Origin: an uncultured Duodenibacillus sp.
Lineage (GTDB): Bacteria > Pseudomonadota > Gammaproteobacteria > Burkholderiales > Burkholderiaceae_F
Length of the DNA: 46,633 nt
Direction: 5' to 3'
Assembly: GCA_944388865.1 (NCBI GenBank)
Contig: CALXKM010000025.1
Coordinates: 1-46,633 of the forward strand
Made by a program: the position numbers and the translations under genes. The notes beneath the pieces were generated by a model, which did not search any database, had not been told where the DNA came from, and saw nothing but the letters and a program-made list of their open reading frames with translations. This document shows positions 26,861-44,912 of this stretch, one piece after another. The stretch's first letter is position 1. Each line of letters begins with the position of its first letter.

Positions 26861-27009
26861 TTGCTGCAGGTTCAGGATCATCTGAGTCTTGGGTTTTTGT
26901 ACGGGCAGCTCAATGAGGCGGATTATGGGAAAATGATGCCGGCAGGCTTTTTCCAACATTGGCTTGTCGTTGTATCCTTTCGCGTTGTTTTTCCAGCTGT
27001 CGTTTATTC

Positions 27010-28794
27010 ATGATCAAGCTTGCTGCTGCGCTTTTTCTTTTTTTGGCGTCCATCAACGGCAGCATTGCGTCGACTCAGGCCAAAATTGGCGTCATTGACG
27101 TTCAAGATCCTTGGTTTTATGTTGGAACAATAGGTCCGACGCTCGAGCATTTGCGAAAGACGCTTCCTCAGTATCGTTTTGTGTCTGAGGAAATGGGCTA
27201 TGAAAATCTGCGCTCGGCCATTGATGCCGGAGAACTCGATTTTTTTATAGCGCCTAGCGGCTTTTTTGCCGATGCTCAGGAAAAAAATGGGGCGCGCCAT
27301 CTTGCAACGCAGGAACGTCCGCAGTCTGTTGATCCTGCGCATACTGCTGCCGGCACCGTTGTGGTGAGACAAAATTCCAAGTTCCGCAAGCTCTCCGATC
27401 TCAAAGGCGCGCGCGTTGCCTCTGACTCGCCGCTTAATTTTCAAAGCTGGATTACAGTACTCGGAGAAATCCATCGTAAGGGAGAAGATCCTGACGAATT
27501 TTGGGGAGAGAAAATCTTCACCGGCCACCAGCTGCCGCATGCCGTCTCGATTGTTCTTGCCGGGGAGGCTGAGGCTGCGGTGCTTTCGGCCTGCGAGCTC
27601 GAAAGATTGGAGGAATCGGGCGTCGTGCCGGCGGGAAGCGTTCGGGTGCTCGATGAAAAAACAGGAGGCCTGACTTGACGGCATTCAACGACGAGCTATC
27701 CGGGTTTTGTCTTTGCCAGTTTGCCCGCTGCAAGCTCACAGATGGTGAAAGACGTTACGGTTGCGCTTTTGACAATGAAGGAGCTTCCGGATGGTTCGGG
27801 CTGGGGATTTGCCAGCAATTTCAATGCAGTCAAGGATCTCTACAAGGACTTGAGACTGGGACCGTACGAGTACTTGAGAACCTGGAGTGCCAGGGCGTTG
27901 TGGAATCAATGGAGCTGGGTGCTTTGGCTTGTTGTTGCCGCGGCTGCGGTGGCCTTTGTGCATATTGTGCGGACCAACCGGTTGGTGCAGGTTCGCACGA
28001 GAGAGCTGCAAGAGGCTATTGAAGAACGAGATCGAATGGAGCGCCAGGCAAGAGAAGATAGAGAAAAACTCTCGCAACTTGAGCGTTCAGGCGTTGTGTC
28101 CCAGCTTTCGGCCATGCTCGCTCATGAAGTGCGCCAGCCGGTGACGGCAATCGTCTACTACGCTGGAGGCCTGCTGCAGTACCTGCGGGGGCTGCGTCTG
28201 AATGATCCGGTCATTGAAGAGGCTGGAAGCAATATTGTCGAAGATGCAAAAAAGATCTCTGACATTGTCGAGCGGGTCCGTTCCTATGCTCGGGAGCGTA
28301 CGAGGAAAAAAGAAATCGTGCGGCTTGATTTGCTCCTTGTCCGTGCGCTGAGAACCTTTGGGCATTCTTCTCTGAGCACGGTCTGCAAGGTGCAGGCTTC
28401 CTCTTTTCCGGAATCGTGGATCGAGGCTGATGCACTGGAAATTGAACTGGTTGTAGTTAATTTGCTAAGAAATGCCGCAGCAGCCGTGGAGCACGTTCCA
28501 AACCCAGAAATCGCGATGCAGTTGAACCGGAAAACCGAAGGCAAGGGACAAGTCTGGCAGGTGATTGTTAAGGACAACGGACCGGCTTTGACTGAAGAGC
28601 AGTTCGCCAGACTTTTTCATCCTGCGGCGAGCAGCAAGCCGCAAGGCCTTGGTTTGGGATTGTCCTTATGCAGACTGATCGTTGAGAGACATTCCGGAAG
28701 ATTGAGCTTTCTTCGGCGCGCTGACGGCCACGGACTGATGGCTGTGCTTGAGCTTGATGCAGTGCCATGCCGACAAAGGAATTGTCATGATTGA
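27010..28794 (+). pseudogene. TtrS-like sensor histidine kinase with PhnD-type periplasmic domain, interrupted by one in-frame TGA
   Basis: Read through, this is a 594-residue kinase: signal/anchor (1-20), periplasmic PhnD-like binding domain (about 25-260), membrane helix (about 304-320), HisKA box AMLAHEVRQP (H372) and an ATPase domain with VVNLLRNAAAAVE, VKDNG and GLGLGLSLCRLIV. A TGA at 27676-27678 (codon 223) splits it; the frame is the same on both sides. It lies before RHSTTSYPGFVFASLP, where relatives have a conserved Cys (CxHST...YP). So Cys to TGA: a nonsense mutation, or selenocysteine. No good ribosome binding site exists for restart. The gene overlaps the regulator by 8 bases; TtrS senses tetrathionate, but this ligand is unknown and probably linked to the adjacent reductases. 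Confidence 0.75.
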
Positions 28795-29411
28795 AAAAGA
28801 ATCGAGTCAGTTTTCCGCTGTTGTTCGAGTTGTCGACGATGAAGAGGCGGTGCGCAAATCAGTTGCCTTTGTGCTCAGGTTGATCGGCTTGGATGTGCGC
28901 TTGTATGAAAGCGGAGTTTGATGACGCTGAGCGGCCCGGATGCATCGTATTGGATATTCGCATGCCGGGCATGAACGGCATGGAGCTGCACAAGCGCCTG
29001 CTCCAAGATGGCAATGATTTGCCTGTGCTCTTTCTGACAGGACACGGCGACATTGATATGGCTGTGACCGCACTTAAGCGAGGAGCTGGAGATTTTTTGC
29101 AAAAACCTTCCGACCCGGAAAGGCTTCAAGCGATCGTGAGGAGGCTTGTTGACGAAAACATCTGCGTGCGCAAGAAAAAGGCTGAGCTTGAACAGAAAAG
29201 ACGCAAATATGATCTTCTTACGCAAAGGGAAAAAGACGTCGTCGATCTTGTTTCGCAAGGAGAGCTCAATAAGGTTATTGCCGACAAGCTTGGCATCACG
29301 CTTTTCACAGTGAAGATTCATCGAGCCAACGCTTGCCGCAAGCTTGAGTGCCGCAGTGCTGTCGATATCAGTGACTTTCTTAGAGACATAGGCATAAAGG
29401 ATGGAAAATGA
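28787..29411 (+). pseudogene. FixJ/TtrR-like response regulator with a small frameshifting deletion
   Basis: The N-terminal frame from ATG 28787 has the receiver start with the acidic pair (VVDDEEAVRKSVAFVLRLIG) and stops at TGA after LYESGV (28918-28920). The next frame resumes at EFDDAERPGCIVLDIRMPGM, carrying the phospho-acceptor Asp in VLDIRMPGM and Lys in FLQKP, then a LuxR-type HTH (LLTQREKDVVDLVSQGE ... VKIHRANACRKL). Compared with FixJ proteins about five residues are missing at the junction, so a deletion of about 14 bases explains both the gap and the frame. The gene ends in ATGA overlap with the next reductase. As written it should not give a working receiver. Confidence 0.75.
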
Positions 29412-30874
29412 CGCAAAGTGAAGCCCGCATCGGACGTCGCCGCTTAATTGTCGCTTCCGGTCTTGCTGCCGCAGGGTTGTTGTGCCCAGCACAGACTTTT
29501 GGCGGACTTTTTGGCAAGTGGGCTGTGACGACCGATGTGATTGTCGTCGGAGCAGGAGCCGCAGGGCTTGCGGCGGCCGTTTCGGCCGCTCAGCACGGCG
29601 CTCAGGTTTTGCTTCTTGAAAAAATGCCCGACATTGGAGGCGATACGCTCATTTCCGGCGGCTTTTTCGGCGCAGTCGATCCAAAGAGGCAAAAAGCTCA
29701 AGGCATCGATGACAGCGAAGAGCTTTTCTTTGAACAAACGTTTAGAAACGGCGATGAAAAAGCAGATCCTCGTTTGGTTCAGGTTTTGGTAAAAGAAGCT
29801 GGGCGATCATTGGCCTGGCTCGAATCCATGGGCATGAGGTTTCAGCCGACTGTGATCGAGATTTACGGTGCTCATTGGCCGCGGTGTCATAAACCGATTT
29901 TGCCGGCTGGCTCTGGCTACATCCAAACTCTGTCGGCTGAGGCCATTCAAAAAGGCGTCGACATCAGGACATCGGTTAAGGTTGCAAACCTCGAACTGGA
30001 ACGTGACAGAGTGGTTGGCGTTGCTGCAGAGATCGAGGGTAAAACGTGCTTTTACCGAGCTCGAAAAGGCGTTGTGATTGCAACCGGCGGTTTTGGGCAG
30101 AATCGAGAGCTTGTTGAAGCATCTGATCCTTTGCTGCGAGGCTTGACGAGCACGAGCGCACCCGGGGCAACCGGCGAGGTCATGCTGGCTGCGGCTCAGG
30201 CAGGCGTCGTCTTGAGAGATATGCAATACATCCAGTGCATGCCCGGGTGTCCGGCAGGAAGGAGGCATCGTGTCAGACTGCACAACGATGTCGCCAGATT
30301 CATTCTTGTTGACGAACACGGAAACAGATTCGTCCGAGAAGACGAAAGGCGCGATGTGCTTTGCAGGAAGGTTTTGGCGCTGCCGAGAAAGTATGCTTAT
30401 TCCATTGTCGACAGCGATGGATTGGATAGCTACAACATTTTGGTTCAGAAAGAGGCCTGGCAGGGCATTGAAACAGGTGATGCCTGGAAGGCTGATACGC
30501 TCGAAGAGCTTGCAAGCAAGATCGAGGTTCCAGCAGAGGCTTTGATTGCGTCTGTAAAGACTTACAACCAGGCAGTTGAGGACAAAAATGATGTTCTTGG
30601 CAAAAGTCCGCGGGAGTTGAGGTTCAAAATACAAACGCCTCCTTTTTGGGCCTGTTACGCAGGAATGTCTGTTCACTACACGATGGGTGGTTTGACGATC
30701 AACGAGAAGGCTCAATGTCTGAACACCGAAAATCAGCCGATAGCAGGACTGTGGGCTGCGGGGGAGGTGACCGGAGGCGTTCATGGCGCCAATCGCTTGG
30801 GGGCAAATGGGTTGGCTGATGCCGTTTCATTTGGCCGCATCGCAGGACGAGAGGCTGCAGGTCAAAACACGTGA
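29408..30874 (+). CDS. Tat-exported FAD-dependent reductase, fumarate/urocanate reductase family
   Basis: Protein of 488 residues with a twin-Arg leader (GRRRLIVASG, 9-18), FAD site VIVVGAGAAGLAAAV (44-58), and catalytic features DERRD (R315), SVHYTMGG (H423) and HGANRLGANG (R463). There is no FMN or heme domain, so it needs an external electron donor. The start overlaps the response regulator stop (ATGA). It is a close relative of the next flavoprotein (31012-32487): both have PRCH and QC.PGCP.GR near the active site. Substrate unknown; the linked sensor genes imply induction by it. Confidence 0.9.
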   Translation: MTQSEARIGRRRLIVASGLAAAGLLCPAQTFGGLFGKWAVTTDVIVVGAGAAGLAAAVSAAQHGAQVLLLEKMPDIGGDTLISGGFFGAVDPKRQKAQGIDDSEELFFEQTFRNGDEKADPRLVQVLVKEAGRSLAWLESMGMRFQPTVIEIYGAHWPRCHKPILPAGSGYIQTLSAEAIQKGVDIRTSVKVANLELERDRVVGVAAEIEGKTCFYRARKGVVIATGGFGQNRELVEASDPLLRGLTSTSAPGATGEVMLAAAQAGVVLRDMQYIQCMPGCPAGRRHRVRLHNDVARFILVDEHGNRFVREDERRDVLCRKVLALPRKYAYSIVDSDGLDSYNILVQKEAWQGIETGDAWKADTLEELASKIEVPAEALIASVKTYNQAVEDKNDVLGKSPRELRFKIQTPPFWACYAGMSVHYTMGGLTINEKAQCLNTENQPIAGLWAAGEVTGGVHGANRLGANGLADAVSFGRIAGREAAGQNT

Positions 30875-31011
30875 ATTATCATCGTTGACGACGGCAAAAA
30901 TCAATTGCACCTTGGTGTAATGCGAAACTTGCTTGAGCTCTCCAAAATCAAGTTCAGAGAGCATGGCTCGAAAGCCTTTTCTCAGAATGAAATTTGAAAC
31001 TGGAGAGAGAT

Positions 31012-32487
31012 ATGACTTCAATGAATAGACGTCATTTTCTGGGCGCCGCTGCTGCAGGTGCACTGACAACTGCAGCATCGGCCTCTATGGCTGCTGCCAA
31101 TCCCTGCAAGCTGCCTGCCAAGTGGGATGAGACGTATGATATGGTTGTCGTCGGGTCCGGCGGCGCAGGACTGGCAAGTGCTGTTTCTGCTGGCCAGAAC
31201 GGCGTCAAGAAAATCATCGTTCTCGAGAAGATGCCCTTCATTGGCGGAAACACGATGATTTCCGGCGGCGGCTTCAACTCTTACGACCCTGTACGTCAGA
31301 AGGCGCAAAAGATCAAAGACAGCCCTGAAAATCATGCCGAAAACACGCTCAAGGGCGGCGATGGTCGTGCGAATCCTGAGCTTGTGCGAACCATGACGGC
31401 AAACAGCTACGACGCACTCTCATGGCTGGAAAAAATGGGCATGAAGTTCAAGCCCGAGGTCTATCAGATTTATGGCGGCTTGTATCCTCGCTGCCATGCT
31501 CCGTACGGCTCTTTGGGCAGCGACTACATCAAGGTACTCGAACCCCAGTGCAAGAAGCTTGGCATTGAAATCCGCACTCAGTCTCGCGTGGTGCGCGTTA
31601 TTCGCGAACAGCCGCTTTCGGGGCGTGTGCTCGGCGTCGAATACACTGATGCCGACGGCAAGTCGCATCTTATCCGTGCGACTAAGGCTGTGGTTTGCGC
31701 AACAGGCGGCTTTGGCGCCAATCCTGAAATGCGCGCCAAGTACGATCCGCGCATGCGCAATCTGACGACGACCAATCTGCCTTGCTCGACTGGCGATTTG
31801 ATTCGGATTCTGCAGGATATTGGCGCCGATACGGTCGGCATGGACTTCATTCAGTGCAACCCCGGCTGCCCTCCGGGACGCAAACAGCGCATCATTTTGC
31901 ACTTGTATGCAGCCAACTTCATCATGGTCGATCGCAAGGGTCAGCGTTTTGTGCCTGAAGACGAACGTCGCGATGTGATTCGCGACGCCGTGCTCAGCCT
32001 TCCTGACCAGACCGCCTTTGCCATCGTTGATCAGCGCGGTTTCGAAGCTCTTAACCCTGGCCATCAAGAGGCGGCGAAAAAGGGGTTGGAGACGGGCGAT
32101 GCTTGGACGGCCAACACAATCGAGGAACTCGCCAAGAAGATGGGAGTTGATCCGGCAGCCTTGAAGAAGACAATTGATGAGTTCAATGCCGGCGTTGATG
32201 CCAAGAAAGACAAGATCGGCAAGAATCCGCGCAATCTGACCAAGATCGAGCGCGCTCCGTTCTGGGCTGGCTACTCCGGCATGAGCGTTCACCACACCAT
32301 GGGCGGCATCGTCATCAACAAAGATACGCAGGTCATCGACCGCTATGGCAAGGTAATTCCCGGCCTGCATGCTGTGGGTGAACTCACGGGCGGCATCCAC
32401 GGAACAAACCGCCTCGGCGGCAATGCAATCTGCGATATCTTCACGTTTGGCAGACTGACCGGCATTGCTGTTGCCAACGGCAAGTAA
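31012..32487 (+). CDS. Tat-exported FAD-dependent reductase, fumarate/urocanate reductase family (paralogue of the preceding gene)
   Basis: Protein of 491 residues with Tat signal NRRHFLGAAAAG (5-16), FAD site MVVVGSGGAGLASAV (44-58), DERRD (R320), SVHHTMGG (H427/H428) and HGTNRLGGN (R467). The motif QCNPGCPPGR (281-290) is shared with the preceding reductase but not with the other two flavoproteins in the window. The start at 31012 has GGAGAG 6 bases upstream. It lies 137 bases after the preceding gene, probably with its own promoter, and ends at a strong terminator. It lacks its own FMN or heme domain. Confidence 0.9.
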   Translation: MTSMNRRHFLGAAAAGALTTAASASMAAANPCKLPAKWDETYDMVVVGSGGAGLASAVSAGQNGVKKIIVLEKMPFIGGNTMISGGGFNSYDPVRQKAQKIKDSPENHAENTLKGGDGRANPELVRTMTANSYDALSWLEKMGMKFKPEVYQIYGGLYPRCHAPYGSLGSDYIKVLEPQCKKLGIEIRTQSRVVRVIREQPLSGRVLGVEYTDADGKSHLIRATKAVVCATGGFGANPEMRAKYDPRMRNLTTTNLPCSTGDLIRILQDIGADTVGMDFIQCNPGCPPGRKQRIILHLYAANFIMVDRKGQRFVPEDERRDVIRDAVLSLPDQTAFAIVDQRGFEALNPGHQEAAKKGLETGDAWTANTIEELAKKMGVDPAALKKTIDEFNAGVDAKKDKIGKNPRNLTKIERAPFWAGYSGMSVHHTMGGIVINKDTQVIDRYGKVIPGLHAVGELTGGIHGTNRLGGNAICDIFTFGRLTGIAVANGK

Positions 32488-33325: not shown

Positions 33326-33857
33326 ACTTTTTTTCGGCGCAAAGTTTCAGCATTTATGCATGAAATTGCCCGCTCCTATAGGTAAGTTTGAGAACAAAAA
33401 CTCCAGGGTTTTAGAAACAATATTGTTGTTCAACGGCGATTTTCTTCGTCCAATGCCTAAATCGTTCCTCTGATTCGGGAACAGGATTTTCGGCAGAGCG
33501 CATCACCTTATGGGCTAGTTAAGCCTTGAGCTTGATTGCTGAGTGTTTTTGGAGTTTTTGTTTAACGTTTTGAGCATGATAGGAGAGGATGCGTCAAAAG
33601 CTGTCGTAACCAGCAAATAAGGAGTCATTCGTCATTGGATGAAAGAAATTTTTAGGGAGCGGGCGAATTTGGTTTGATGATCGTTTTCCCATCTGTTGAC
33701 TTTCTTCGACCTATTTGAGGATTTTGTGGAGCACAATGATCTTAAGACTGAATCTTTGTCGGACCATATTTATTGGTCATCAAGCAGGAAATTGACGTCC
33801 GGTGAAAAGACTGAATGCAGGACTTGCTGTGATGACCTTTTGCGACAGGAGGTTCGT
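33326..33857. other. Intergenic region upstream of the cytosolic lyase
   Basis: About 530 AT-richer bases without a convincing gene. A degenerate copy (CGTCAAAAGCTGTCG, 33592-33606) of the box found before the AAA+ gene lies about 250 bases before the lyase start. The lyase frame is open upstream to 33696 but the AGGAGG at about 33847 fixes the start downstream. Confidence 0.45.
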
Positions 33858-35234
33858 ATGACGACTATTATCGATTCAGGCTTTTTTCGCAAAAACTGGT
33901 CAGTACCAGCACTTGAAAAAGTTTTCTCAGATGAAGGCCGCATCCAGTCCTGGCTTGATGTGGAGGCTGCTCTTGCGAGAGTGCAGGGCCGGCTTGGCGT
34001 AATTCCTGCTGATGCTGCTCAAGAAATAGATGCACACTGCAAGGTTGAGAAGATTGATCTTCAATTGTTCAAGGAAACTTTGGCCAAGACTGGTCATATG
34101 ATTATGCCGGTTCTCAAGTGTGTACAAGCTGCTTGTCCTGGCAAGTTGGGTGAGTTCGTCCATTTTGGTGCGACTACACAGGACATCATGGATACAGGTG
34201 AGATTCTGCAGATACGTCAGGCTTCTCGATATATCCTCAAAGAAACGTTAAGGCTGGAAAAGGCAATTCTTGACAAGGCAAAGAAGTTTCAATACACCGT
34301 GATGGCTGGTCGCACGCACGGGCAACAAGGTCTTCCCATCACGATGGGATTCAAATTCGCGACTTGGGCTGCTGAACTGCGTCGTGATATCGAACGAATA
34401 AAGGCCTTCCCAGATCGCGTTTTTGTTCTGATGCTCTTTGGTGCTGTAGGTACAAAAGCGGGCTATGGTTCCCGAGCGGCTGAAACCGTCGAAGGCGTTG
34501 CAAGGGAGCTCGGTCTCAAGCAGCTTCCAATTTGTTGGGCAACGTCTCGAGATGTCCTAGCTGAGTACCTAACAACTTTGGGTATTTTGGCGGGAACAAT
34601 TGGCCGCATTGCTAACGAGGTCATTGCCTGTTCGACGAGCGAAGTGGGCGAGCTTCGGGAGCCTATGAGTAGTACAACGGTCGGTTCCTCCACGATGCCT
34701 CATAAACGCAATCCTGCAAGTTGCGAAACCATAGTTGCCCAGTGCCGCATTGTTCAGTCATATGCTTACCTCGGTATGCAGACACAGATTAGCGAGCACG
34801 AAAGGGACCCGCGCATGTGGCGCATTGACTTGGTGGATATTCCTAATGCCAGCATGCTTGCAGCTCGGGCCGTAACGGCGACTGCGGACGTTGTTGAAGG
34901 TCTCGAAATTGATGAAAGGAATATTGAACGCAATCTCAATTTGCTCGGTGGATTGCTATTGTCTGAGGCTGTTATGCTCGTTCTAGGGAAAAGAATAGGC
35001 AAAAACACAGCGCACCATTTGTTGCACGAACTTGCGCTAGACCAAAGCGACGACAAAACTTTTATTGAACGGCTCCATGACTGCAAGCAGGTCACCGATG
35101 TTTTGACGCATGAGGAAATTGATGCGATTTTTGACTACAGCAAGTATTTAGGAAGCGCCACGGAGGATGTTGATGCTGTGGTTGAGTATTGCACCAGATT
35201 GGCTCAGACGGATCCGGTTCCTGAGGAGTTCTAG
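33858..35234 (+). CDS. Aspartase/fumarase-superfamily lyase (adenylosuccinate lyase-like), cytosolic
   Basis: Protein of 458 residues without a signal peptide. Superfamily motifs: HFGATTQDIMDTG (102-114), GRTHGQQGLPITMGF (151-165, with the conserved TH) and the Ser loop GSSTMPHKRNP (276-286). These enzymes eliminate an amine or similar group from succinyl-type substrates, releasing fumarate or a related enoate. It resembles adenylosuccinate lyase and 3-carboxymuconate cycloisomerase but no pur or pca genes are near, so it may act on another amino-dicarboxylate. AGGAGG lies 5 bases before ATG 33858. The base composition is AT-richer than neighbours, hinting at acquisition. Confidence 0.85.
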   Translation: MTTIIDSGFFRKNWSVPALEKVFSDEGRIQSWLDVEAALARVQGRLGVIPADAAQEIDAHCKVEKIDLQLFKETLAKTGHMIMPVLKCVQAACPGKLGEFVHFGATTQDIMDTGEILQIRQASRYILKETLRLEKAILDKAKKFQYTVMAGRTHGQQGLPITMGFKFATWAAELRRDIERIKAFPDRVFVLMLFGAVGTKAGYGSRAAETVEGVARELGLKQLPICWATSRDVLAEYLTTLGILAGTIGRIANEVIACSTSEVGELREPMSSTTVGSSTMPHKRNPASCETIVAQCRIVQSYAYLGMQTQISEHERDPRMWRIDLVDIPNASMLAARAVTATADVVEGLEIDERNIERNLNLLGGLLLSEAVMLVLGKRIGKNTAHHLLHELALDQSDDKTFIERLHDCKQVTDVLTHEEIDAIFDYSKYLGSATEDVDAVVEYCTRLAQTDPVPEEF

Positions 35235-40415: not shown

Positions 40416-41903
40416 ATGCAGAAATTTGCCCTTGGTCTTTTGGCCGCCGCATGTGCGTCCGCTCTGTGGGCTTCGGATACGGTTCGCGATGAGTTTTTCT
40501 GGCTCGGAGAAATGAACAAAGCCACGACCGTCATCAATACGGATGAGAAGCTGCTTGACAAAGCTGTCGTGAAAAAAGTTGCTCATGGTTTGCAGACCGT
40601 GATTGCAAACGGCAATAAAAAGGGAGGCGCCCGTCCATCGGAAGTCATTAAGTTTGAGCCGTATCTGATTAAGGAAGCAGGCATGGATGTCACAATGCTT
40701 CATATTGGTCGCTCAAGCCAAGACATGCATGCAACGTACCGTTCGGCAATCATGCGCGACAACGTGCTCGCTCTTTCTGAAAAGCTGGCTGAGGTGATGG
40801 CGGTCATCAACGACATTGCTCGCAAAAATCAGTCCACGATTGTGCCCAACTACACCAATGGCGTTGCGGCTCAGCCCAACAGCTATGCGCACTACCTCAT
40901 GGGTTATCAGGCATCGTTTGAGCGCACGCAGCAGCAGCTTAGAGATTTTTACGAAAGGCTAAATTGGTGCTCTATGGGGACAACGGTTCTCAATGGCACG
41001 AGCTGGCCTCTTAATCGCGAACGCATGGCCAAGTATCTGGGCTTTAATGGACCGGTGCCCAATGCCTACGACGCAAGTCAAATGAAGTCCGTCGACGAAC
41101 CTATTGAATTTGCGGGCATCATCACCGGCATGGCTGTTCGTGTGGGTACATTTATCGAAGACGTGTTCGTACAGTACGCTCAGCCTCGTCCTTGGATTCT
41201 TCTCATAGAAGGCGGCGAAAACACTTATGTTTCGTCAGCCATGCCTCAAAAGCGCAATCCCGGCATTATGGTCAACACGCGCAAGGCCGCAAGCAAGGCG
41301 ATTGCTCAAGCTCAGTCAACGGTGTGGCTTGCGCACAATATTCCGCCAGGAATGTCTGACAACAAGAGCGTTGCAGACAACAACAAGATGGCCAAGGCGG
41401 CCATTGAGATGCTCGACAAATTCGAGCGCGTTCTCAAGGCGCTCAAAATCAATCCAGAGCGTGCGCTTGAAGAACTCAACAACGACTGGACGGCAAGTCA
41501 GGAAGTGGCCGATGTGCTGATGCGAGAATACAAACTGCCGTTTCGCGTTGGACATCACGTAGCCAGCGGCATGGTTTCCTATGCTCGAGCCAACAACATC
41601 AAGCCTCTGGATTTCCCGTACGCTCAAATGCAGCGCATTTACGCCGAAGTGATCGCCAAGGAATATCCTCAGGGACCGGCACAGTGCCCGATGAGCGAAG
41701 AGCTCTTCAAGAAGACTCTTGATCCTCGAGCCATTGTTGCAAACCGAAAGACCGAAGGCGGTCCGCAGCCTAAAGAGCTTGCAAAAGCGGTGAAGGCCAT
41801 GGATAAGTCAATTGCCGGCCAGCGTGAGTGGGTGCAAGATAAGCGAGAGCATATCGAAAACTCTCTCAAGAAGCTTGATCGAGATTTCCAAAAGTTGCTC
41901 TAA
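40416..41903 (+). CDS. Exported argininosuccinate-lyase-like protein
   Basis: Protein of 495 residues with a clear Sec signal peptide (1-19, cut near LWA-SD), which is unusual for this normally cytosolic superfamily. Motifs: HIGRSSQDMHATYR (96-109, like HTGRSRND of argininosuccinate lyase), AAQPNSYAHYLMGY (151-164) and the Ser loop SSAMPQKRNPG (273-283). The conserved TH before that Gln is T-N here (N148), so the substrate probably differs. GGAGAGA lies about 9 bases before ATG 40416. It faces an exported FAD reductase gene; it may release an enoate in the periplasm as an electron acceptor. Confidence 0.85.
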   Translation: MQKFALGLLAAACASALWASDTVRDEFFWLGEMNKATTVINTDEKLLDKAVVKKVAHGLQTVIANGNKKGGARPSEVIKFEPYLIKEAGMDVTMLHIGRSSQDMHATYRSAIMRDNVLALSEKLAEVMAVINDIARKNQSTIVPNYTNGVAAQPNSYAHYLMGYQASFERTQQQLRDFYERLNWCSMGTTVLNGTSWPLNRERMAKYLGFNGPVPNAYDASQMKSVDEPIEFAGIITGMAVRVGTFIEDVFVQYAQPRPWILLIEGGENTYVSSAMPQKRNPGIMVNTRKAASKAIAQAQSTVWLAHNIPPGMSDNKSVADNNKMAKAAIEMLDKFERVLKALKINPERALEELNNDWTASQEVADVLMREYKLPFRVGHHVASGMVSYARANNIKPLDFPYAQMQRIYAEVIAKEYPQGPAQCPMSEELFKKTLDPRAIVANRKTEGGPQPKELAKAVKAMDKSIAGQREWVQDKREHIENSLKKLDRDFQKLL

Positions 41904-41951
41904 AAGAACTTATGGCGGCAGAAAGCCAGCATCAGCTTCTTAGCTGCCGAT

Positions 41952-41991
41952 CATAAAAATTGCCCGCAGGCATGTCTTTGCTTGCGGGCAA
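41952..41991 (-). terminator. Terminator of the LysR-linked flavoprotein gene
   Basis: TTGCCCGCA (41960-41968) / TGCGGGCAA (41983-41991); on the minus strand a run of five T follows. Confidence 0.75.
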
Positions 41992-42043
41992 AATCATCAA
42001 GTCTGAAAGGCTGTTTAGATCAGCCGTTCAAGTCCTTTTTGCT

Positions 42044-43573
42044 TTACATCCATGGTTTTTGGGCCGCTGCCTGCTGGCCGGCAATGCGTCCGTTGATCAA
42101 AGCATCGGCCGTTCCGCAGGAACCCAAACGGACGGCGCCGTGTACGCCGCCAGTAGCTTCGCCGGCAGCATACAGGCTCGGAATCAGACGCCCTTCAACA
42201 TGGTAAACCTGAGCTTTGTCGTTGGTGTAGAGCCCGCCCATGCAGTGATGGATCTTGGGCGACATGCGTGCGACATACCAGGGGCCTTTTTCGAGCTTCT
42301 TAGCCTTGGCATTGACCGGACGGCCAATCGGATCCTTTTTGGTGTCAACCGACTTGTTCATTTCGGCAATCGTCTGCTTTAAGACATCGGCCGGAACATT
42401 GAACTTCTTGGCAAGATCGTCCAAAGTCTTGAATTCGAATACGACGCCGCGTTCGAGCTGACGCTTGAGCATGCCGGGGCGGATTTCTTCAAACGAAGCG
42501 GCCGTGCCGGCGTCGCCGATGGCCAGACATTCGTGCCCTTTGTTGAGGCGGTCAAGAATAGCAAGCGAGCGAACTTTGCGATTGGCAAGTTCGTTGACAA
42601 AGCGTTTGCCTGTTGTGCCGTCTACCCAGACGCCAAACATCGAAACATGTCCTGACCAGGCAAAGCCGATGCCAAAGCCTTTCTCGTCAGGAGAAGTTTG
42701 CGGCAGGATTTGAATTTGGTCGGCCTGAATGACGTGAGCGCCGATTGCCATGGCCGCACGCCAGCCTTCAGAAGTTGCACCGGGCTGGTTGGTGGTGTCG
42801 AACTTCGAGGTGAGCTTCGGGTCATAGATCTGACGGAACTGGGCGTCGGCCGAAAAGCCTCCGTAGCAAAGAACTACACCGCGCTTGGCAGCCAGATATT
42901 TGACCTTGCCAGAATTTTTGTCGGGGAAGCGGTAGCCTTCGCGGATCTTGACGCCGACAACACGTCCTTCGTCATTGACGATAATTTCTTCCATTAAGGT
43001 GCGAAGGCGAGGCTTGACGCCGATCTTGGCAAGCGCCGCGAGTTCTTTGTTGACAATCTCTGAGCCTGAGCCGTTGATCGTAAAGAGGCTGCGCGGAACC
43101 GTATGCCCGCCTTCCTGCTTGATGTTTTTATCCTGGTATTGGACACCGAGCTCTTTGACGGTCCATTCGTAGGTGGCAACGGCGGCCTCGCACAGCGCCT
43201 TTACCTTGTCGGGATGGTTCATGGCGTCTCCGGCCTTGAGCATGTCCTGCATCATCAGTTCGGGCGAGTCCTTGATGCCGAGCTTTTTCTGCAGCGGTGA
43301 ACCGGGGACGGCCAGAATGCCGCCGTTGATTGCAGAGTTGCCGCCGGCAACGCGCATTTTTTCCAGAATGGCAACCGTTGCTCCGGCTTTTTTGGCTTCG
43401 TAGGCTGCGGCCAAACCAGCAAAGCCGGAACCGACAACAACGACGTCAACAGCTTCGTCCCATTTGGCAGGAATTTTGCTGGAGGCTGCTGCCCAGCTCG
43501 GAATCGTAGAAGCTGCAGCGGCAGCTGTCAGAATCTGCACGAAGCCTCTGCGGCTTAGTTTTTTGATCAGCAT
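42044..43573 (-). CDS. Tat-exported FAD-dependent reductase, fumarate/urocanate reductase family
   Basis: Protein of 509 residues. Tat signal LSRRGFVQIL (6-15) with cleavage near WAAAS; FAD site VVVVGSGFAGLAAAYEA (44-60). Active-site features: FVNELANRK (R332), KIHHCMGG (H442/H443) and HGAVRLGSCG (R482; relatives often have NRLGG). No FMN or heme domain, so an external donor is needed. AAAGGAG lies 7 bases before the start. The LysR gene is 119 bases upstream on the same strand and a 19-base palindrome sits between. The exported lyase gene is convergent, 140 bases away. Confidence 0.9.
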   Translation of the reverse strand: MLIKKLSRRGFVQILTAAAAASTIPSWAAASSKIPAKWDEAVDVVVVGSGFAGLAAAYEAKKAGATVAILEKMRVAGGNSAINGGILAVPGSPLQKKLGIKDSPELMMQDMLKAGDAMNHPDKVKALCEAAVATYEWTVKELGVQYQDKNIKQEGGHTVPRSLFTINGSGSEIVNKELAALAKIGVKPRLRTLMEEIIVNDEGRVVGVKIREGYRFPDKNSGKVKYLAAKRGVVLCYGGFSADAQFRQIYDPKLTSKFDTTNQPGATSEGWRAAMAIGAHVIQADQIQILPQTSPDEKGFGIGFAWSGHVSMFGVWVDGTTGKRFVNELANRKVRSLAILDRLNKGHECLAIGDAGTAASFEEIRPGMLKRQLERGVVFEFKTLDDLAKKFNVPADVLKQTIAEMNKSVDTKKDPIGRPVNAKAKKLEKGPWYVARMSPKIHHCMGGLYTNDKAQVYHVEGRLIPSLYAAGEATGGVHGAVRLGSCGTADALINGRIAGQQAAAQKPWM

Positions 43574-43692: not shown

Positions 43693-44649
43693 CTAGAGGC
43701 TCTCAGGATCTATACCAAGAATGCGAAAGCCCTCTTCTCGTCGGCTGTCGATTTCTTGGGTAGCACGTCTGGCGTACCAAGCAGCAAATCGTCCGACCGG
43801 CGTCTGAGGCCCGTCTTCAATGCGCGTTGCGATCGAATAATCCCAGTAGTCGCGGTGCCAGCCGTTGAGCACGGGCACAAGCGTTTTGTTGCGCAGTTCG
43901 TCAAGCACCATGCCAAGCGGTACGTCAAGCGCGATGCCAAAGCCTCGCAGGGCTGCGTCCTTGATGTTGAGCATGTCGTGGTGAAACACGCTGTGTTTCC
44001 AGCGCACAGGATGCTTCTTGTGTCTGAGCACAAGATACCGCGCGGTTGGAAAATTTTCGCCAGTCTTCAAAATCAAAGTATGCCTGCATAACTCCGAAGG
44101 GTTTAGCGGCGCACCGTGAAGACGAAGGTAGGACGGCGAGGCCAGAGGAATTGTGAAGGCATGCATCGCCGGATATATTTTTAGTCCCGGAACTTTAGGC
44201 AAAAAAGGTAGAAAAGCTACGTCAATTTCTCGTTTCAAAAGCGCATCTACGCCTTGCTCAATGGAGGCTTCGATGACGACATGCGGTTCGATTTCGTGGT
44301 ATTCGGCGAGCTGTTTGTTGAGATAGAAGCGGCCAATGCCAACAGGAGTGGAGAGTCGCACGACATGGCGCAAAGATTCTTCGGTGAGCAGAAAATCTTC
44401 GAACTCAATCCACGGCGGCAGAATCGTTTGGAGTTTTTCCAGTATCCGCACTCCTTCATGAGTTGGCCGCAAAGGCCGAACAGATCGGTCAATGAGCGCA
44501 GTGCCGATATCTGATTCGAGTTGAGACAAAAGGCGGCTGGCTTTGCTCACCGGTAGGTCGCTTTCAATAGCCGCGCGCGACAAGCTGCCCGTTCTGGCTA
44601 CGGCATCGAGCACTTTCCAGGCAGTCAGATTGGACAAAGACGCGCGCAT
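43693..44649 (-). CDS. LysR-family transcriptional regulator
   Basis: Protein of 318 residues. The N-terminal HTH starts LTAWKVLDAVARTGSLSRAA and continues SKASRLLSQLESDIGTALIDR; the rest is the LysR effector domain. The ATG at 44649 is chosen because the HTH begins right after it; an upstream ATG (44706) adds an atypical extension. It lies just upstream of the flavoprotein gene on the same strand and likely governs it, and perhaps the exported lyase, through TTGC-N7-GCAA boxes. Inducer unknown. Confidence 0.9.
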   Translation of the reverse strand: MRASLSNLTAWKVLDAVARTGSLSRAAIESDLPVSKASRLLSQLESDIGTALIDRSVRPLRPTHEGVRILEKLQTILPPWIEFEDFLLTEESLRHVVRLSTPVGIGRFYLNKQLAEYHEIEPHVVIEASIEQGVDALLKREIDVAFLPFLPKVPGLKIYPAMHAFTIPLASPSYLRLHGAPLNPSELCRHTLILKTGENFPTARYLVLRHKKHPVRWKHSVFHHDMLNIKDAALRGFGIALDVPLGMVLDELRNKTLVPVLNGWHRDYWDYSIATRIEDGPQTPVGRFAAWYARRATQEIDSRREEGFRILGIDPESL

Positions 44650-44912
44650 ACAACTAAGAGCAGAGATCGAAAGACAGTGAGGTGCAGGATATCGACAAAA
44701 TTCCATCGAATCAAGGATAGGTGCGCATGCGATGACATTTGTCTGCGAATTGACGCACAGTTGAGGTTTCGTCAGACGTTAAACGCCGAAATCAGAAACT
44801 GCAGGGCGAAAAGATTCAAAAGACAGGGCGGTGAAGAAACAACCGCGGTTTGCTCTGTAAACTAATTGCCGCACGTCACAAGCTTGTGCAGACTATCACA
44901 CTGAACACAACA

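Follow-up and report, generated by a model that had tools for sequence, protein, structure and literature searches.

We analysed contig CALXKM010000025.1 of an uncultured Duodenibacillus sp. (GenBank assembly GCA_944388865.1), a stretch of 46,633 nucleotides called the window here (contig C25 of a 2.49 Mb genome that is 98.8% complete). The gene in question, at 40416–41903, encodes an enzyme of the argininosuccinate lyase (ASL) superfamily with a predicted signal peptide. With moderate confidence, we read this enzyme as a periplasmic C–N or C–S lyase that would release fumarate outside the inner membrane, the flavin reductase and LysR-family regulator encoded beside it forming a separate respiratory module. 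A sequence-only reading of the same DNA had instead joined the neighbours into one pathway, in which the lyase splits an amino-dicarboxylate or similar compound and the reductase uses the product at once as electron acceptor. The features concerned are:

40416..41903, plus strand: ASL-superfamily enzyme, exported as judged from its N-terminus, 495 aa, PF00206 and PF14698 above cut-off
40416..40472, plus strand: probable Sec signal peptide of 19 codons, a hydrophobic N-terminus with pLDDT <50 for residues 1–20
40707..40724, plus strand: active-site motif GRSSQD, residues 98–103, from the alignment (GRSRND in the genome's own ArgH)
40851..40865, plus strand: YTNGV, residues 146–150, with Asn in place of the conserved ArgH His (FTH)
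41232..41261, plus strand: superfamily signature SSAMPQKRNP, residues 273–282, from the alignment
42044..43573, minus strand: FAD_binding_2/flavocytochrome c-type reductase with a Tat signal, 509 aa, TIGR01813, no haem or FMN domain
43538..43555, minus strand: twin-arginine motif SRRGFV, residues 7–12 of the reductase, from its sequence
43693..44706, minus strand: LysR-family regulator, by profile matches and orthologous neighbours elsewhere the conserved partner of the reductase rather than of the lyase

The lyase gene starts at the ATG at 40416, with GGAGAGAG upstream, and stops at 41903. Pfam, NCBIfam and PDB searches were concordant on the families of both lyase and reductase. Lyase_1 (PF00206) scored 98.9 bits against a cut-off of 27 and, together with the SSAMPQKRNP loop, places the protein in the ASL/fumarase superfamily; ASL_C2 (PF14698, 36.5 bits) is also above its cut-off. 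The argH model TIGR00838 gave 182.1 bits, below its cut-off of 279.5, and the XcbC model a similar 177 bits. Among solved structures, 6rx8 and 6g3d (EDDS lyase, E 7e-30) are closest in sequence, and a Foldseek search with the AlphaFold model (mean pLDDT 84.7, mostly well predicted beyond residue 20) placed EDDS lyase in the top four positions (TM 0.82), ahead of argininosuccinate lyases. In an alignment of ten sequences, 36–78% identical to the window enzyme, G98, R99, S100, Q102, D103, S273 and MPQKRNP are invariant, as are other columns. GRSxQD, YTNGV, SxAMPQKRNP and GMxD are common to the relatives, where the genome's own ArgH reads GRSRND, FTH and YNKD. Asn148 of YTNGV is conserved in the family; the site is His in the own ArgH and in L092, the His of the ArgH T–H motif that we take to be catalytic. 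Assignment of the window enzyme as ArgH was rejected on the sub-threshold argH score and the His to Asn replacement. The best reading of these motifs is a new subfamily of the ASL superfamily (GRSxQD, YTNGV, SxAMPQKRNP) whose nearest relative is EDDS lyase.

The N-terminus, MQKFALGLLAAACASALWA followed by SD, has the composition of a Sec-type signal peptide, with cleavage expected after ALWA or after ASA. The RDEFFWL core begins directly after this stretch, and relatives without a signal peptide start at the core. Thirteen other examined relatives carry a hydrophobic extension at the same place, mostly of different sequence. Composition and conservation across relatives together make a Sec-dependent, periplasmic location probable, so that the earlier identification of an argininosuccinate-lyase-like enzyme with a signal peptide is upheld.

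The same reading had regarded an exported member of this lyase family as unusual, which proved wrong. Named records yielded 88 lyase ORFs (open reading frames; 87 loci from two collections), chiefly from Burkholderiales and Alphaproteobacteria, and 86 of them have a hydrophobic N-terminal extension at a hydropathy threshold of 1.5 before the DEFFW core, or 75 of 88 at a stricter 1.75 in a fixed stretch, and we therefore rejected the idea of an oddity. The two that lack it are L209 (Parasutterella muris) and the second tandem copy in L256 (6908–9906, Rhodospirillum UBA1311), where an exported lyase is directly followed by a copy that has no signal peptide and begins at the core. The plasmid collection held 281 records with a lyase match, 80 of which covered most of the query; the matches listed include Caballeronia, Agrobacterium, Paracoccus, Cupriavidus and others at 55–63% identity, several of them annotated as argininosuccinate lyase. 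From at least 439 relatives the genome scan took the 80 most similar to the window enzyme, which is not a random sample; these loci come mostly from Achromobacter, Bordetella, Caballeronia, Paraburkholderia, Paracoccus, Phyllobacterium and their kin. Close relatives match records of Sutterella, Parasutterella, Mesosutterella and Turicimonas, which we take to be gut anaerobes; most of the wider relatives are presumably aerobes. Turicimonas muris YL45 and Sutterella wadsworthensis DSM 14016 are among those with an exported lyase (L208 and L204). None of the 88 ORFs has DcuC within 3 kb. A reductase match lies within 5 kb of five, three of them from the gut (L205, L206, L207), and is absent from this distance, within the flanking DNA covered, at 78 of the 80 non-gut loci; the non-gut matches (L229, L225) have neither the Fcc3 core nor the fumarate residue set described below. 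Neighbours within 3.5 kb of the 80 non-gut loci (73 genome, seven plasmid) gave no clue to the substrate. Outside the gut genomes the exported lyase mostly stands alone. The literature matches listed included no study of a periplasmic ASL-like lyase and no activity for a family member.

The case for fumarate as the product comes from a contrast within Sutterellaceae-type genomes. Family lyases occurred in 42 of 67 such genomes at E 1e-90 or better, with 103 matches in total. We examined 71 of these with their flanks, plus L076 from outside the family, giving 72 ORFs; the other 32 were left out, L120 was dropped as a duplicate of L041, and some flanks stop at contig ends. By a hydropathy heuristic and reading by eye, 14 ORFs (the window's included) have a hydrophobic N-terminal extension, 56 have none and two are truncated (L053 and L057, in neither count). 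DcuC lies within 0.5 kb of none of the 14 exported lyases versus 39 of the 56 non-exported ones (Fisher p 1.4e-6, kinship ignored), where one carrier scored as DcuC (351 bits, cut-off 100) and the others were found with a hidden Markov model built from it. Two paralogs in the window's own genome, on contigs C28 and C53, have no signal peptide and adjoin DcuC. DcuC-paired lyases usually have a LysR gene nearby. Four of the non-exported calls are open to doubt. In L151 and L158, both with DcuC alongside, the ATG is sited at the core and a hydrophobic stretch precedes it; the L088 lyase lies in frame behind a porin; and L112 is a long ORF whose N-terminus was unread. One starred clade of 16 rows in the tree takes in 12 of the 14 exported lyases, and a second tree has a matching clade. 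Among its rows are also the non-exported L039 and L048, both with DcuC beside them, and L105, without DcuC. L207, from a contig labelled Lachnospiraceae, groups with the Sutterellaceae-type exported lyases and is probably misbinned.

A few of these loci differ in composition. In L084, L087 and L088 a DcuC-like carrier, an amidohydrolase, a porin and the lyase are clustered, with an MFS transporter in L087; the amidohydrolase and MFS protein were scored in L087 only, the rest of the clusters being read mostly by eye. A ring-opened or N-acyl aspartate is a possible substrate suggested by such clusters. In L088 (7058–9685, genome G027) a single 875-aa frame runs through a porin domain and then the family lyase, either a fusion or a lost stop codon.

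We suggest that the substrate of the window enzyme would be an aspartate-type compound, N- or S-succinyl, from which elimination of an amine or a thiol would release fumarate. One report states that the equilibria of adenylosuccinate and argininosuccinate lyases strongly favour the substrate (PMC9706529). Since known equilibria favour the adduct, such an enzyme would need a sink for fumarate. For a cytosolic lyase the sink would probably be export through DcuC; for an exported one it could be reduction in the periplasm by a canonical reductase encoded elsewhere in the genome, or uptake. Export without DcuC, or DcuC without export, is the pattern that favours fumarate as the product. A single NapC/NrfH-type quinol dehydrogenase match was found in the genome, on contig C35, and other reductases of the genome resemble canonical periplasmic fumarate reductases in their residues and N-termini. 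Respiration of the product stays plausible for periplasmic fumarate and these components, and is not supported for the pair in the window. A search for the CxxCH haem motif in window frames of more than 80 codons gave none, so an electron donor would need another source.

Several observations weigh against this reading. If L151 and L158 are counted as exported, DcuC stands beside 2 of 16 exported and 37 of 54 non-exported lyases. Only five independent pairs on starred branches of the tree differ in export, with DcuC opposite in about two and the same in none, which is not significant; the direction of the contrast fits. Asn replaces the ASL His throughout the family, so the chemistry could differ. 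Nor do the neighbours at the non-gut loci suggest a substrate: none is conserved, and the most recurrent groups (by eye, LysR-like proteins and Bug-type binding proteins) reach 17 of 80 each. Finally, 5 of the 14 exported lyases lie near a reductase where 1.8 would be expected at the background frequency given below (P 0.026).

The adjacent reductase starts at the ATG at 43573, with AAGGAG upstream. Lyase and reductase genes are convergent, 141 bp separating their stop codons, and the LysR gene lies 120 bp upstream of the reductase on the same strand. A Tat-exported reductase with a LysR gene next to the lyase had been claimed before, and the SRRGFV motif, the TIGR01813 score (440.5 bits, cut-off 285.45) and the regulator at 43693–44706 agree with this. 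Both proteins carry export signals and would therefore share the periplasm. The more specific label of a fumarate/urocanate-type reductase survives at the level of family, the best solved relative being urocanate reductase 6t85 (UrdA, 277 bits), and fails at the substrate pocket. At the seven Fcc3 positions H365, T377, E378, R381, R402, H504 and R544 the window reductase reads LSGSRHR; it keeps the catalytic Arg/His/Arg core but lacks four of the seven fumarate residues and hence the Fcc3-type set. Which residues fall at T377 and E378 varies with the alignment (a pairwise reading by eye gave Leu, Gly, Phe, Ser for the first four positions), and the fumarate set is absent in both. PMC10882135 assigns the acid to Arg401/402 and the relay to Glu377/378 and Arg380/381 in Fcc3, and in UrdA has Arg411 at the acid position with Arg560 and His520 binding the carboxylate. 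A urocanate reductase is not indicated either: the position of UrdA Tyr373, inferred from the alignment, is Leu, and no FMN-binding domain appeared among the Pfam hits. H365 and T377 of Fcc3 presumably bind the other carboxylate of fumarate. The window reductase probably reduces another enoate, whose distal end would not be a carboxylate held as in fumarate reductase.

Within the same genome, L162 (contig C16) reads HTERRHR, the full Fcc3 fumarate set. Alignment of 46 reductase ORFs, one a duplicate, left 45 distinct genes, one SdhA/FrdA-like by eye. With about 45 FAD_binding_2 reductases in 2.49 Mb, and many different pocket motifs among them, little about a pathway can be concluded from a reductase gene that adjoins an enzyme gene. 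The pocket QILPQTSPDEKGFGIGFAWSGHVSMFG is conserved almost letter for letter in four of five orthologs (G008, G077, G010, G079), which argues for a settled specificity; the fifth, from G082 (62% identity), reads LSGQRHR. We defined orthologs at ≥60% identity, scoring at most 22 first-look candidates per genome. In the same four genomes a LysR gene is directly upstream of the ortholog on the same strand, the four regulators matching that of the window at 70, 53, 52 and 42% identity; none was found near the ortholog in G082. LysR and reductase are a conserved unit, separate from the lyase.

The proposed module of an enzyme that makes an enoate and a neighbour that reduces it at once would lead one to expect the pair elsewhere, and the survey of genomes speaks against it: we rate the module as quite unlikely. 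Both proteins carry export signals and their genes adjoin in the window, and finding a reductase gene so near is only mildly unlikely by chance: for 12.9% of genome positions, one of 44 reductase matches is no more than 3 kb distant. However, the adjacency is not conserved, the pocket is not of the fumarate type, and LysR accompanies the reductase alone. Exported lyases were found in 13 genomes of the family, nine of which lack a reductase ortholog (three of the nine are <90% complete). All five other orthologs do share a contig with a family lyase, the nearest one listed being about 19 kb away in G008, 25 kb in G077, 32 kb in G010 and 13 kb in G079 and G082, but in the last two that lyase has no signal peptide. 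The sister genomes G004 and G007 have lyases 96% identical to the window's, and best reductase matches of 57 and 55% identity. In G004 the exported lyase comes after two reductases and a PurB-like lyase arranged as at 29.4–35.2 kb of the window, and a response-regulator-like ORF takes the place of the window reductase on its other side; in G007 no reductase was found within about 8 kb. A parallel is seen in G080, where an exported lyase lies 1.6 kb from a convergent reductase of the same broad group, with other genes between; yet its pocket reads GAGARHR. What stands of the earlier proposal of splitting and reduction in the periplasm is thus the compartment, as predicted from the signals, and fumarate as the likely product; the adjacent reductase as partner does not.

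Counted over all examined loci, 5 of the 14 exported lyases (window, G004, G080, G010, G077) and 5 of the 56 non-exported ones have a reductase no more than 3 kb away (p 0.022, kinship ignored), weak support for the co-occurrence that the sequence-only reading had itself named as its test. A further exported lyase, L207, has a reductase 231 bp away, cut by the end of its 3.2 kb contig. The reductases near other exported lyases belong to several subfamilies with differing pockets, and none that could be read has the fumarate set. The excess is mild and includes no conserved pair; it would allow a loose link with respiration. Seen from the other side, 10 of 40 reductase ORFs (from 42 matches of the window reductase's group) have a superfamily lyase within 5 kb: four family members (two exported), two FumC-like, one AspA-like, two PurB/XcbD-like and L144, which was unscored. 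A specific enrichment of lyases near this reductase group was rejected given these mixed types, as was a conserved lyase–reductase pair, since adjacency is not kept across genomes.

Three other explanations concern the lyase itself. Succination repair or scavenging is unlikely; on this view the enzyme, in the manner of 2SL, would cleave thio compounds of the S-(2-succino) or mercaptosuccinate type, with fumarate a mere by-product. It draws on 2SL, of the same lyase class, which forms fumarate from N-acetyl-2-succinocysteine (PMC9706529), and on an Advenella 'putative argininosuccinate lyase' (MIM_c16970), possibly of the same family, given ratios of 6.4, 3.5 and 1.9 in what appears to be a PMC5373536 table of proteins elevated during growth on organic sulfur compounds; the most recurrent neighbours of the non-gut loci include no gene that we recognised as belonging to sulfur metabolism. 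Release of a different enoate would fit the unusual pocket of the adjacent reductase, since that pocket lacks the residues that bind the second carboxylate. XcbC-type superfamily members are said to release sulfo- or substituted acrylate, the XcbC score (177 bits) nearly equals that of argH (182), and the active site has Asn for the ASL His and Gln for the Asn of GRSRND. We nevertheless think this very unlikely, because the presence of the C4-dicarboxylate carrier DcuC next to most relatives that are not exported speaks for a C4 product and the nearest fold is that of EDDS lyase, whose reaction involves fumarate. Delta-crystallin is an ASL relative that acts as a structural protein without the ASL reaction, and the Asn at the ASL His position in the aligned family could suggest a similar binding or structural role. 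With S273, MPQKRNP and G98-R99-S100 invariant among the ten sequences, and with EDDS lyase an active enzyme that also has no His in the alignment, such a loss of function is highly improbable.

A periplasmic, fumarate-releasing lyase therefore remains the reading we favour. A broader version is possible but doubtful, and we offer it tentatively: a widespread periplasmic branch of the ASL superfamily would release fumarate, and gut Sutterellaceae would respire it in the periplasm without dicarboxylate transport, their paralogs staying inside, paired with DcuC. If this is true, periplasmic fumarate would serve these bacteria as an electron acceptor free of transport cost. Metabolism of gut Sutterellaceae appears centred on aspartate and fumarate. 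For Sutterella massiliensis colonising chicken caecum, PMC11204068 describes a central route in which aspartate gives fumarate and this in turn succinate or malate, with an 'argininosuccinate lyase' among the expressed proteins. Several family members bear that annotation publicly, although the window enzyme falls short of the argH cut-off, has no His and has a signal peptide. The exported subfamily is, to us, a more interesting outcome than the proposed module.

Elsewhere in the window, a PurB/XcbD-like lyase (33696–35234, plus strand; purB model 332.5 bits, cut-off 326.2; XcbD 437.6 bits, below the XcbD cut-off) lies downstream of two reductases on the same strand (29408–30874 and 30994–32487). 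A PurB/XcbD-like lyase with a LysR gene and a relative of the window reductase recurs in the same arrangement in two species (G000 contig C37, L115 7017–11147; G004 contig C7, L116 8427–12553), lyase and reductase being 1150 bp and 1152 bp apart, respectively. This pair is a better candidate for a lyase–reductase unit than the one in the window. Directly after the reductase near the exported lyase of G080 lies the gene of a small protein (L102 2817–3161), a possible electron donor, whose N-terminus is signal-like and which contains a CxxCH haem motif. A sensor kinase is split in the window into two ORFs (26959–27678 and 27721–28794) and is a single 596-aa ORF in G004 (L120 9286–11076), possibly a broken gene or a sequence error.

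Compared with known systems, the window reductase keeps the catalytic positions of UrdA/Fcc3 (Arg402/411, His504/520, Arg544/560) but has Leu at Fcc3 H365/UrdA Tyr373, replacements at T377, E378 and R381, GAVRLGS for GANRLGG, and neither a haem nor an FMN domain. The DcuC–lyase pairs of Sutterellaceae-type genomes contain the same lyase family as the window but without a signal peptide, and the window lyase has no DcuC beside it. ArgH (TIGR00838) shares Lyase_1, ASL_C2 and the SSxMPxK signature with the window enzyme, which differs in being predicted to be exported and, with its family, in Asn for His and GMxD for the ArgH YNKD stretch; a separate ArgH-like gene (L003) is present in the genome. 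2SL belongs to the same fumarate-releasing lyase class and is found in yxe sulfur loci (PMC9706529); the main text of that report does not use the words periplasm- or signal peptide. The nearest known enzyme by both sequence and fold is EDDS lyase of Chelativorans sp. BNC1 (6g3d, 6g3e, 6g3i, 6rx8), which has the same fold at 22% identity in the fold alignment. The window enzyme differs in carrying a signal peptide, and the EDDS lyase motifs are GRSRND and YTQ where the window family has GRSxQD and YTNGV. Both enzymes nevertheless depart from ASL at the His position (YTQ and YTN), and EDDS lyase catalyses, opposite to the lyase direction, the addition of amines to fumarate, with N-substituted aspartates as products (PMC12363623).

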